Assembly: GCA_017477465.1 (NCBI GenBank)
Contig: JAFUVU010000046.1
Span: forward strand, 22,611-86,610
From: Bacteroidales bacterium
GTDB lineage: Bacteria > Bacteroidota > Bacteroidia > Bacteroidales > UBA932
Direction: 5' to 3'
DNA: 64,000 nucleotides
Shown: positions 20,713-31,887 of the stretch, piece after piece
How positions within the stretch are numbered: position 1 is the first letter of the stretch
Layout: each line of letters opens with the position of its first letter
Notes under the pieces: generated by a model
What the model was told of the DNA's origin: nothing
What the model saw: the letters and a program-made list of their open reading frames with translations, nothing else
Database searches by the model: none
Made by a program: the position numbers and the translations under genes

Positions 20713-23019
20713 ATGGAGGGCAAAAATTTAGTTATAGTAGAGTCTCCCGGCAAGGTGAAGACCATTCAGAAATACCTTGGAAGCGAATATTTGGTAAAAG
20801 CTTCCATCGGCCACATCCGCGACTTGGAAGAACATAAGCTCAGCGTAGATATCGAGCACGGCTTCCAACCGGAGTATGTGATTCCCTCCGACAAAAAGAA
20901 AGTAGTGGCGGAACTCCGCAAACTTTCAGAGCAGGCCTCGACCGTCTGGCTGGCCTCCGATGAGGACCGTGAAGGGGAAGCTATTTCCTGGCATCTCAGG
21001 GAAACTCTGGACCTTCCGCGCGAAAAGACCCGCCGCATCGTTTTCCACGAAATCACCAAGCCTGCTATCCTGGAGGCTATAGAACATCCCCGGGACATCG
21101 ACATGAATCTGGTGAACGCCCAGCAGGCCCGCCGCGTACTGGACCGCCTGGTAGGCTTTGAACTCTCCCCCATCCTTTGGAAGAAAATCCAGCCCAAGCT
21201 CAGCGCAGGCCGCGTGCAAAGCGTCGCCCTCCGCCTCATAGTGGACCGCGAAAGGGAGATCATGGACTTCAAGCCGGAACCTTTTTATCGGGTTGAAGCC
21301 ATCTTCCGCCCGGAAGGGGCCGACAGCAGCGTCAAGGCCACCCTCGACACTCATTTCTCCTCGGAGGACGAGGCCCGCAAGTTCCTGGAAGACAGCATCG
21401 GCGCAGTATATCAGATTGCGTCCGTAGATAAAAAGGAAGGCGTGAGAGTGCCGCCGGCTCCTTTCACCACCTCCACGCTTCAGCAGGAGGCAGCCCGCAG
21501 GTTGCGTTTCCCCGTATCCACAACCATGAGGGTGGCGCAGACCTTATATGAAAGAGGTCTGATCACCTATATGCGTACGGACTCGACAAACCTGTCCTCC
21601 CTTGCGCTGAACACCGCCAAGCAGTTCATCCTCAACAATTACGGCGAAGCCTATTCCCACCCCCGCCAGTACCGCACCAAGGTCAAAGGGGCCCAGGAAG
21701 CGCACGAGGCAATCCGTCCCACCTTCATCGGCGACACCGATATAGAAGGAACGCTGCAGGAAAAGAAGCTCTACAACCTGATTTGGAAGCGTACCGTAGC
21801 ATCGCAAATGGCTGAAAGCCGCATACTTAACACTTCCATCAAGATATCCCTCGACAAGCGCCCGGAGCAGTACGGCGCCCAGTCGGTGCAGATTCTTTTC
21901 GACGGCTACCTCAAAGTGTATATGGAAAGCCGCGAAGAGCAGGAAGGCCCCGCGGACGAAGAGGTCGTGCTCCCGGAGCTCTTCATCGGCACACCCATGC
22001 GCGAAGAAGGCGTACAGGCCCTTTGCAAATTCACCGCTCCCCCGCTCCGCTATTCGGAGGCAATGCTTGTCAAGAAGCTGGAAGAGCTAGAAATCGGCCG
22101 TCCGTCCACTTATCAGTCGATTATCGGCACCCTTACTACAGGACGCGGATATGTGGTCAAGGGCGACAAGGAGGGAACACCGTTCAAAGTGACCAACCTA
22201 AGCCTCAAGGGCGGCACCGTCAAGAGCTCGCAGAAGACGGAAGTGGTAGGCGCCGAAAAGAACAAGCTCCTCCCTCAGGAAATAGGCCTCATCGTGTCCG
22301 GATATCTGGTGGATCATTTCACCGACGTAATGGACTACGACTTCACCGCCAACGTTGAGGCCGATTTTGACCAGGTGGCCGAAGGAAAGCGCATCTGGAG
22401 CGACGCGATAAGCTCATTCTACGGCCCCTTCCACGCACACGTGGAGGCAGTGATGGCCGACCGCACCTACAGCAAGGTCTCCCGGGAAATCGGCATTGCT
22501 CCGGACGGGGATAAAGTGATTGCCGCATTCGGCAAATTCGGTCCTTATGTGCAAAAGGGCGAAGGTGAAAAGCGTCAGAGCGCATCCCTTGGAAAAGGCC
22601 AGCTCATCGAGACGCTTACCCTGGAGGAAGCCCTGAAGCTTCTGGAACTGCCCCGCACTGTGGGACAGATGGACGGTATCGACATAATTGCCACCCGCGG
22701 ACGCTTCGGCCCTTACCTGAAATACGGCGACAAGAACGTCACTCTGCCAAAAGGAATGGACCCGCTGACCGTAACGCTTGAGGAATGCATGCAGCTAATC
22801 AAGGAAGCTCAGGCGCCCAAGGCCGCCCCTGAATTTCTGGCTGAATTTGGGGACATCAAGGTTATAAACGGAAAGTACGGACCATATATCAAGCAAGGTA
22901 ATTCAAACTTCAAAATTCCTAAAGGCACCAAAGCAGAGACACTAACGGAGGCTGACTGTCAAGCGATTATAGCAGCATCCGAGCCCACAAAAAAATTCAC
23001 GACAAGGCGTAAAAAATAA
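20713..23019 (+). CDS. topA: DNA topoisomerase I
   Basis: 768 residues; relaxes negative supercoils through a 5'-phosphotyrosine. The Toprim domain starts at LVIVESPGKVKTIQKYLG, with ASDEDREGEAISWHL near residue 80 and the catalytic Tyr in GLITYMRTDS near residue 283. The C-terminus lacks Cys4 zinc fingers. It has several RFGPYLKYGDKN / KFGPYVQKGEG / KYGPYIKQGNSN repeats and a basic RRKK tail, as in other Bacteroidota TopA. The frame stays open to 20287, but that part runs over the PBP1a promoter and lacks homology; ATG 20713 is the start. Confidence 0.96.
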   Translation: MEGKNLVIVESPGKVKTIQKYLGSEYLVKASIGHIRDLEEHKLSVDIEHGFQPEYVIPSDKKKVVAELRKLSEQASTVWLASDEDREGEAISWHLRETLDLPREKTRRIVFHEITKPAILEAIEHPRDIDMNLVNAQQARRVLDRLVGFELSPILWKKIQPKLSAGRVQSVALRLIVDREREIMDFKPEPFYRVEAIFRPEGADSSVKATLDTHFSSEDEARKFLEDSIGAVYQIASVDKKEGVRVPPAPFTTSTLQQEAARRLRFPVSTTMRVAQTLYERGLITYMRTDSTNLSSLALNTAKQFILNNYGEAYSHPRQYRTKVKGAQEAHEAIRPTFIGDTDIEGTLQEKKLYNLIWKRTVASQMAESRILNTSIKISLDKRPEQYGAQSVQILFDGYLKVYMESREEQEGPADEEVVLPELFIGTPMREEGVQALCKFTAPPLRYSEAMLVKKLEELEIGRPSTYQSIIGTLTTGRGYVVKGDKEGTPFKVTNLSLKGGTVKSSQKTEVVGAEKNKLLPQEIGLIVSGYLVDHFTDVMDYDFTANVEADFDQVAEGKRIWSDAISSFYGPFHAHVEAVMADRTYSKVSREIGIAPDGDKVIAAFGKFGPYVQKGEGEKRQSASLGKGQLIETLTLEEALKLLELPRTVGQMDGIDIIATRGRFGPYLKYGDKNVTLPKGMDPLTVTLEECMQLIKEAQAPKAAPEFLAEFGDIKVINGKYGPYIKQGNSNFKIPKGTKAETLTEADCQAIIAASEPTKKFTTRRKK

Positions 23020-31523: not shown

Positions 31524-31531
31524 TATCTTTG
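31524..31531 (+). promoter_or_regulatory. -7 box (TATCTTTG) for tRNA-Leu
   Basis: TAnnTTTG match 14 nt before the first tRNA base, so the tRNA has its own promoter after the S41 gene. Confidence 0.65.
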
Positions 31532-31545
31532 CAGTCCCACATTTT

Positions 31546-31845
31546 GCCTTGGTGGTGGAATGGTAGACACGAGGGACTTAGACACAATTGAGTGCACTCT
31601 CTGAAAAGAGAGATGTAGAATGCCGTAAATTCAAGGAAACCTTAACAGGTAACGCTGAAGGCAATCTTGAGCCAAGCCTTTGAGAAAAAGGAAGGTGCAG
31701 AGACTAGACACGGCACACCTAAAGAGCGATACTCCATGGTGAAGGAATAGTCCGGACCACAAACAGAGATGGTGGCGAAAGCCATAGTGGTAAGAAAATC
31801 CCTTGGCCCGAAACGGCCGTGCGGGTTCGATTCCCGCCCGAGGCA
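31546..31845 (+). tRNA. tRNA-Leu (anticodon UAA) interrupted by a group I intron
   Basis: The exons are 31546-31579 and 31795-31845. Joined, they give a class II leucine tRNA of 85 nt: acceptor GCCTTGG/CCGAGGC, anticodon stem AGGGA/TCCCT with loop CUUAAAA, a variable arm (TTGGCCCGAAACGGCCGT in outline) and the T arm GCGGGTTCGATTCCCGC. The discriminator is A and CCA is not encoded. The intron lies between U34 and A35, so splicing is needed for a functional anticodon. Confidence 0.93.
31580..31794 (+). ncRNA. Group I intron in tRNA-Leu(UAA), IC3-like
   Basis: 215 nt between U34 and A35, ending in G (31794). Core elements are visible: P/Q pairing P4 (TCAAG 31631-31635 with CTTGA 31666-31670), Q region AATCTTGAGCC (31663-31673), R region GGTGCAGAGACTAGACA (31694-31710) and S region AGGAATAGTCC, with P7 pairing GACTA (31702-31706) to TAGTC (31748-31752). 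The internal guide GAGT (31590-31593) can pair with the exon end ACUU, leaving a U.G at the splice site. It closely resembles the cyanobacterial/plastid tRNA-Leu intron. No endonuclease ORF fits inside. Confidence 0.92.
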
Positions 31846-31848
31846 CGG

Positions 31849-31887
31849 TTATCGCCCTTTCAGGTAGCTGGAAGGGCGATAATTTTT
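31849..31887 (+). terminator. Intrinsic terminator of tRNA-Leu
   Basis: TTATCGCCCTT and AAGGGCGATAA form an 11-bp stem with a loop containing a short CAG/CTG pair, followed by TTTTT. It begins three bases after the tRNA. Confidence 0.85.

Follow-up and report, generated by a model that had tools for sequence, protein, structure and literature searches.

A tRNA-Leu(UAA) group I intron of Candidatus Cryptobacteroides as a probable endonuclease-less stage of a mobile intron with phage kin

A 215-nt insertion splits a tRNA-Leu(UAA) gene between U34 and A35

We analyzed a stretch of 64,000 nt (hereafter the window) that covers positions 22,611 to 86,610 of the forward strand of contig JAFUVU010000046.1; all positions below are counted within it. 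The host belongs to the genus Candidatus Cryptobacteroides, which bears out the Bacteroidales origin given in a preliminary description of this DNA. With introns allowed, ARAGORN calls a tRNA-Leu(UAA) gene on the plus strand at 31546-31845 that is split by an intron of 215 nt (31580-31794) between U34 and A35; without the intron option, the program misses this gene. The 5′ exon (31546-31579, ending in U34) and the 3′ exon (31795-31845, running from A35 through the discriminator base), placed by ARAGORN and by reading of the sequence, join into a standard tRNA-Leu(UAA). On the same strand, upstream of the gene, lies TATCTTTG (31524-31531), a match to the pattern TAnnTTTG that we take to be a -7 promoter element of the Bacteroidota type. 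Downstream, an inverted repeat (31849-31859/31872-31882) and a T run form a likely terminator (31849-31887), read from the sequence and unscored. Because a -7 box precedes the split gene and the inverted repeat with its T run follows it, the gene is probably transcribed on its own as a single-gene unit. The contig is 86.6 kb long and also carries the mre operon.

The insertion has the core and splice sites of a group I intron

The Rfam model RF00028 matches positions 31570-31775 with 53.9 bits against a gathering score of 50 (E = 6.8e-11 for the window), and nothing else in the assembly of 2.42 Mb matches this model at E ≤ 0.1. Model R1, of which the window intron is a member by construction, scores the intron at 219.7 bits. 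The sequence can be folded into P1 (CUU/GAG plus an A-U pair), the helices P2 to P9 and the pseudoknot of P7. The P1 loop is 10 nt long (31580-31589) and, by comparison, occupies the position at which relatives carry an HNH endonuclease gene of about 520 nt. It is followed by the internal guide GAG(U) at 31590-31593, which, as read from the sequence, pairs with (A)CUU of the exon and leaves a U-G wobble at the splice site. The P2 hairpin (31593-31617), the P9 hairpin (31772-31785) and the parts between them were placed by alignment pairing and sequence, these parts being a domain at 31621-31715, in which P3 (31621-31626/31710-31715) encloses P4 (31631-31636/31665-31670), P5 and P6 (31671-31698), and the P8 hairpin (31716-31741), whose loop carries the second part of the HNH reading frame in some viral relatives. 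The 5′ strand of P7, GACUA (R element, 31702-31706), pairs with UAGUC (S element, 31748-31752). The 3′ end reads ...GGTAAG|AAAA, so that the intron ends in a G (omega-G), and this terminal G and the G-C pair of P7 are both present.

Covariation was scored on alignment A1, which holds 24 introns: 10 from the genus, 6 viral, and 8 from cyanobacteria, proteobacteria and an acidobacterium. Over 48 pairs including P7, 98.2% of cells are paired and 34 pairs change on both sides, values to be read with the bias that this alignment also served to predict every pair except those of P7. Shuffling gave means of 76.2% paired cells and 23.4 pairs changed on both sides, and none of 500 shuffles reached either observed value; with partners slid by 1-3 columns, only 34-43% of cells were paired. 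In P3, all 6 pairs show changes on both sides. The P3-P8 core, with its P, Q, R and S elements and P7, is a group I intron core. The intron aligns over its full length with tRNA introns from several phyla, and it may be IC3-like (subgroup IC3, small tRNA-type core). Judged by these sequence features, it would be catalytically complete and is predicted to self-splice.

These results uphold most of what the preliminary description had said of this locus, namely that a group I intron with exact exons splits the anticodon of tRNA-Leu(UAA) and that it has a P/Q/R/S core with consistent P4 and P7 pairings. The comparison with the Rfam group I model that it had proposed as a check gave a score above the gathering threshold. 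Its statement that no endonuclease is encoded holds for the window copy, which has no open reading frame in its short P1 loop; relatives do encode an endonuclease.

The split gene is the only source of the UAA anticodon found in the assembly

RF00005 finds 45 tRNA matches in the assembly, which is 82.5% complete in 73 contigs. We inspected all 45 places, in 30 loci and 14 additional stretches. ARAGORN names every one except '???(tgca)', which at 75 nt is too short for a leucine tRNA (L526), and the leucine tRNAs besides the split gene have the anticodons CAA, CAG, GAG and UAG. A second, intact tRNA-Leu(UAA), which would have spoken against the first description of the locus, was thus not found, and the split gene is the only UAA-anticodon source seen in this 82.5%-complete assembly, in which other named tRNAs are also absent (no Phe, no Ile). 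In ten window genes, UUA accounts for 18 of 474 leucine codons.

The intron turns over rapidly within the genus

RF00028 matches occur in 50 of 151 genomes of the genus, 47 of them with the match in tRNA-Leu(UAA); a few of the 47 genes are named otherwise by ARAGORN, with an identical exon junction (CTT|AAAATC), and one (L015) is cut by a contig end. Partial introns lie at contig ends in three further genomes (L016, L017 and L028). A query with the spliced exons finds a match in at least 128 of the 151 genomes, and many of the genes among the matches listed are uninterrupted. Nine tRNA-Leu(UAA) loci that have the intron and four that lack it are no more than about 1 kb behind rodA, and their shared position means that the two kinds of locus there are the same gene. 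In G021 (L022), the same tRNA-Leu(UAA) site holds a second, divergent group I intron, with 263 nt between the exons and an R1 score of 89.8 bits.

Two matches, L075 and L076 (RF00028 24.0 and 20.4 bits), were set aside as probable chance, since no tRNA is called around them and R1 does not match them at E ≤ 1. L074 (G112:C14:20086-20366), at a locus other than tRNA-Leu, scores 38.1 bits with RF00028 and weakly with R1 (16.2 bits); it lies beside an HNH-like frame, and the neighboring sequence resembles, by eye, a gene for an SPFH/prohibitin-type protein. Separately, among the matches listed, G071 and G106 each have an intron-bearing and an uninterrupted tRNA-Leu(UAA)-like gene on separate contigs, through duplication or a mixed bin.

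We compared the presence of the intron with a host tree built from MreB, PBP2 and RodA of 80 chosen rather than randomly drawn genomes (47 with the intron, 32 without it and one with a different intron; three rows are poorly filled). Among the 79 scored genomes, presence changes at least 22 times, gains and losses being inseparable by parsimony, and 17 of these changes are forced by well-supported branches. Shuffled labels gave a mean of 25.9 changes, and 40 of 500 shuffles were as low as 22. In the subset of 47 genomes with mreB and the tRNA gene on one contig, there are 12 changes, 11 of them forced, and 164 of 500 shuffles were as low. Distances between intron cores correlate weakly with distances between hosts (r = 0.138; 52 of 2000 permutations as high), and the second-closest pair of cores, from G098 and G005, differs by 0.025 at a host distance of 1.31. 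Within the genus, the pattern is that of an intron in rapid turnover and not of an old inheritance. The near-identical cores in distant hosts, together with the low core-host correlation, also support the view that horizontal movement is involved, one of two origins that had been suggested for the intron. The other, a wider old distribution, stands for the intron type as a whole but does not fit the pattern within the genus.

Outside the genus, R1 was run with stricter filters. It is positive in 2 of 294 other genomes sampled from the order (one of the 294, of the same genus, is negative), with one match in a Leu(taa) gene and one in a gene that ARAGORN calls Ile(tat). In the phylum sample, 31 of 394 other genomes are positive, in several tRNAs; among them is G622 (L325), whose tRNA-Leu intron carries an HNH gene that belongs to the family described below. 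We do not count L144, from Porphyromonadaceae bacterium UBA4262 (G835), as a recent transfer. Its 217 nt are identical to window exon and intron, the acceptor stem differs, the flanks are dissimilar, and MreB of this genome is 64% identical to that of the window. It would be the strongest case for such an event, but the match (L144/L561) runs to the contig end and the exon stretch recurs in a separate, uninterrupted tRNA-Leu(UAA) of this genome, so a chimeric contig end is as likely as a transfer.

The tRNA-Leu(UAA) intron is the textbook example of an ancient, vertically kept intron, and vertical descent since an early ancestor of bacteria, the history proposed for cyanobacteria and plastids, would account for an insertion site and core type like those of the cyanobacterial tRNA-Leu introns and for the wide spread of the intron type among bacteria. 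Against such descent stand the number of presence changes in a single genus, which is close to the shuffled mean, the low core-host correlation, and the two positives in the order sample, and we consider it very unlikely. A stable, domesticated intron whose splicing sets the level of tRNA-Leu(UAA), so that mobility no longer matters in this species, is likewise highly improbable: a regulated tRNA would suit the rare UUA codon and the sole UAA-anticodon tRNA found, but the intron is absent from near relatives on the host tree, which makes a conserved regulatory role unlikely.

Relatives carry an HNH endonuclease gene in the P1 loop

Among the complete introns of the genus, 14 of 46 are longer than 700 nt. 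In relatives with the gene, the P1 loop measures 519-531 nt, as against 8-21 nt in the others, and encodes an HNH protein that matches Pfam HNH families PF01844/PF13392 and PHROG 10822 (1.5e-41); a PDB search with this protein gave no match at E ≤ 0.1. Two of the long introns have damaged genes, with a frameshift in L013 and a broken start in L070. Shortened copies retain pieces of the HNH gene in L009, L012, L014 and the contig-end L017, and others are bare like the window copy, in which we recognized no remnant of the gene. A "remnant" class of eight rows was defined by length alone, and it includes L049, whose P1 loop is normal, as well as L005 and L068, which have long loops in which no HNH was seen.

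For 14 long reading frames (including L070 and the contig-end L016), dS could be computed for 11 of 91 pairs, and dN/dS among these did not exceed 0.14; the other 80 pairs are saturated in dS, and the 11 usable values are near saturation too (median 2.4). On the core tree, a weak one in which 9 of 43 inner branches are starred, and with L070 counted as full despite its broken N-terminal frame, the state of the endonuclease gene changes at least 12 times (6 forced), no fewer than with shuffled labels (mean 11.5). The window core falls in a starred clade of 10 rows, made up of five long and five bare copies. Since the window core thus sits among kin that bear the gene, the endonuclease gene was probably lost in the line of the window intron.

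Coding constraint on the core itself was considered for Cryptobacteroides and rejected. All 14 long introns keep the frame from P3 to R, but so do 22 of 25 bare and 6 of 8 intermediate ones, and P6 contains a stop in 5 of the 14 long introns; translation of the core is therefore unsupported in the genus. Elsewhere, among the matches listed, 32 of 111 genome introns keep the same frame, as do 62 of 101 viral introns.

The nearest sampled cores outside Bacteroidota are viral

The generic core pattern is found at 120 or more loci each in genomes and in viral sequences. Among the matches listed, tRNA introns of many bacteria share this core wording with those of viral contigs, and ARAGORN calls tRNA-Leu(taa) at 49 of the 121 places in genomes and 55 of the 120 in viral sequences; tRNA-Leu(UAA) introns occur in Alphaproteobacteria, Betaproteobacteria and Acidobacteria, and Arg(CCU) introns in proteobacteria. 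Core identity to the window is 82-92% for nine introns of the genus and 67-76% for six viral introns. The alphaproteobacterial and acidobacterial tRNA introns (five, 64-73%) and a betaproteobacterial one (56%) share the core type with the window, as does the tRNA-Ile intron of Azoarcus, a bacterial tRNA group I intron of the same type. Two cyanobacterial introns reach 54-58%. The last P7 pair is C-G in the two cyanobacterial rows and A-U in the window and the other 21 rows. In a blastn search with the window core, the best loci listed after the Bacteroidota rows are viral (L316, L314 and L237), then archaeal (L079), then viral again (L301). The nearest viral cores in tRNA-Leu(UAA) genes, L314 and L301, are 73-76% identical to that of the window, and among the viral sequences compared we found none with an intron identical to that of the window. 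Deep branches are weak in a tree of 181 rows. In a tree of 137 rows, from which long-branched rows were dropped and in which the genus was thinned to 14, the genus and viral L314 lie on one side of a branch with a support of 99.7. The nearest sampled kin outside Bacteroidota are thus viral, alongside an AU test that does not reject a clade of Cryptobacteroides and cyanobacteria (p = 0.319). A cyanobacterial intron as nearest kin was looked for and not found.

The preliminary description had matched this intron to that of cyanobacterial and plastid tRNA-Leu, and the match is right for the insertion site (U34/A35) and for the type of the small core, probably IC3-like; at 54-58% core identity, it does not extend to a special link. 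Like its cyanobacterial counterparts, the window copy has no reading frame, and we know of no endonuclease gene in the cyanobacterial tRNA-Leu intron. Unlike them, the Cryptobacteroides intron turns over within a genus and has relatives with an HNH gene in P1. Another parallel is the cyanobacterial tRNA-fMet intron, a group I intron at the anticodon region of a different tRNA that bears the gene of a homing endonuclease, I-SspI. The transfer of a cyanobacterial or plastid intron into a gut bacterium would explain the identical site, and the joint clade was not rejected; with a core closer to viral, alphaproteobacterial and acidobacterial introns than to cyanobacterial ones, a different last P7 pair, and the branch that groups the genus with viral L314, we regard this transfer as barely credible.

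Viral relatives include an HNH reading frame that runs through the ribozyme core

A profile built from the HNH proteins of the genus, which also covers a tail encoded by the core, finds relatives inside viral tRNA introns (L219, L224, L225, L230, L237 and L244) and adjoining others; the phage status of the viral contigs rests on their source collections. Among deposited phages, a 735-kb phage has two records with matches that span 95% of the window tRNA plus intron. In one of them (LR756501, L491), tRNA-Leu(UAA) has an intron of 205 nt that scores 194.6 bits with R1; in LR756511, the intron is 700 nt long and has an HNH gene inside. An intronless tRNA-Leu(UAA) with the 32-nt site of the window occurs in 17 viral contigs, and in two of these, perhaps from the same phage, an HNH gene of the same family lies about 25 nt upstream.

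In viral L318-L321, L433 and L437, the HNH reading frame runs in frame from the P1 loop through the core into an insert in the P8 loop. These represent three distinct viral sequence groups, L318-L321 being one element in related contigs; the sequence of L321 is incomplete, and no tRNA-Leu is called around the reading frame of L321 or L437. The P8-loop insert encodes a CxxC/CS..C zinc knuckle and a helix-turn-helix of the VSDNA(V/I)RKWC type, and where the whole intron was read (L318 and L320), the frame ends at a TAG/UAG in the S element. R1 matches the two core halves separately in these introns. The core frame is kept in the through-core introns L433, L434, L436 and L437 and in 0 of 6 viral introns with the endonuclease gene inside. 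L442, a homologue that lacks an intron core and lies next to an intronless tRNA-Leu, joins the same domains by an unrelated linker. Endonuclease reading frames that overlap intron core sequence are known, according to PMC3984707; in literature searches on neighboring topics, we met no description of a reading frame with domains on both sides of the core.

Several other viral loci deserve mention in their own right. In Prevotella phage Lak-B1 (L493, MK250020.1 289979-293038), tRNA-Leu(UAA) apparently holds a pair of group I introns with R1 scores of 35.3 and 22.1 bits; one interrupts the D arm at GGTA^GACAC, the other the anticodon. PMC8346664 states that tRNAs of Lak phages contain introns. 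L237 (1826-2667) has an intron-bearing tRNA that reads as tRNA-Leu(UAA) and is called 'Stop(tta)' by ARAGORN, and miscalls of this kind might lie behind some of the reported phage UAA-suppressor tRNAs. L316 has two strong R1 matches, one of 171.9 bits where an intron interrupts a tRNA that is named Ala(tgc), the other of 133.6 bits at 888-1096, which would make two group I introns in one stretch of contig.

Discussion

We conclude, with a probability of roughly 0.85, that the window intron is the endonuclease-less stage of a mobile intron that circulates in Cryptobacteroides and has kin in phages. The least credible explanation is that the locus is an artefact or a dead gene, be it misassembled, wrongly binned or interrupted by an intron that does not splice. 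The assembly is indeed a draft, but the locus is internal to its contig, which also holds the mre operon; the same kind of intron sits in the same gene in 46 other genomes of the genus (one cut by a contig end), the window copy has intact core elements, and we found no tRNA that could substitute for this one.

For a mobile intron of this kind, events can be proposed as follows. The transcript would fold and CUU of the 5′ exon would dock on the GAG guide; GTP at P7 would make the first cut, U34 would be joined to A35, and the intron would be released with the UAA anticodon restored. In the full form, the HNH protein of the P1 loop probably cuts intronless tRNA-Leu(UAA), at a site presumed to be AGACACGAGGGACTTAAAATCCCTTGG, and repair would copy the intron in (homing). 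Copies would lose the endonuclease gene and later the intron, and empty sites would be reinvaded. Phages with an intron-bearing tRNA-Leu(UAA), or with the bare target beside an HNH gene of the same family, could ferry the intron between hosts, and we judge the case for phages as the likeliest carriers to be about evenly balanced. A broader proposal, which we hold tentatively and as somewhat short of an even chance, is that tRNA-Leu(UAA) is a shared homing site at which an intron/HNH system is exchanged between phages and gut Bacteroidales, that the viral ribozyme core doubles as code for an inter-domain linker, and that the Cryptobacteroides introns, that of the window among them, arose from such viral elements as first the C-terminal half and later the whole gene was lost.

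Phage group I introns in protein-coding genes have cores with short matches to the window, and some lie near HNH genes (annotation of KX889068); they differ in that the host gene here is tRNA-Leu(UAA) and the endonuclease gene of relatives sits in the P1 loop. The phage introns observed up to 2014 were all in protein-coding genes, according to the 2014 review PMC3984707, and PMC13096335 has a phage endonuclease as its subject. In literature drawn largely from outside subscription journals, we found no account of group I introns in tRNA or tRNA-Leu genes of Bacteroidota or in Cryptobacteroides.

A single gut genus thus displays the stages of a mobile element, from introns with an endonuclease gene through broken genes and bare introns to empty sites, across dozens of genomes, one per species. 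The gain, decay and loss of an intron in an essential tRNA become directly testable in this genus, and phage tRNA genes emerge as a possible route of transfer.
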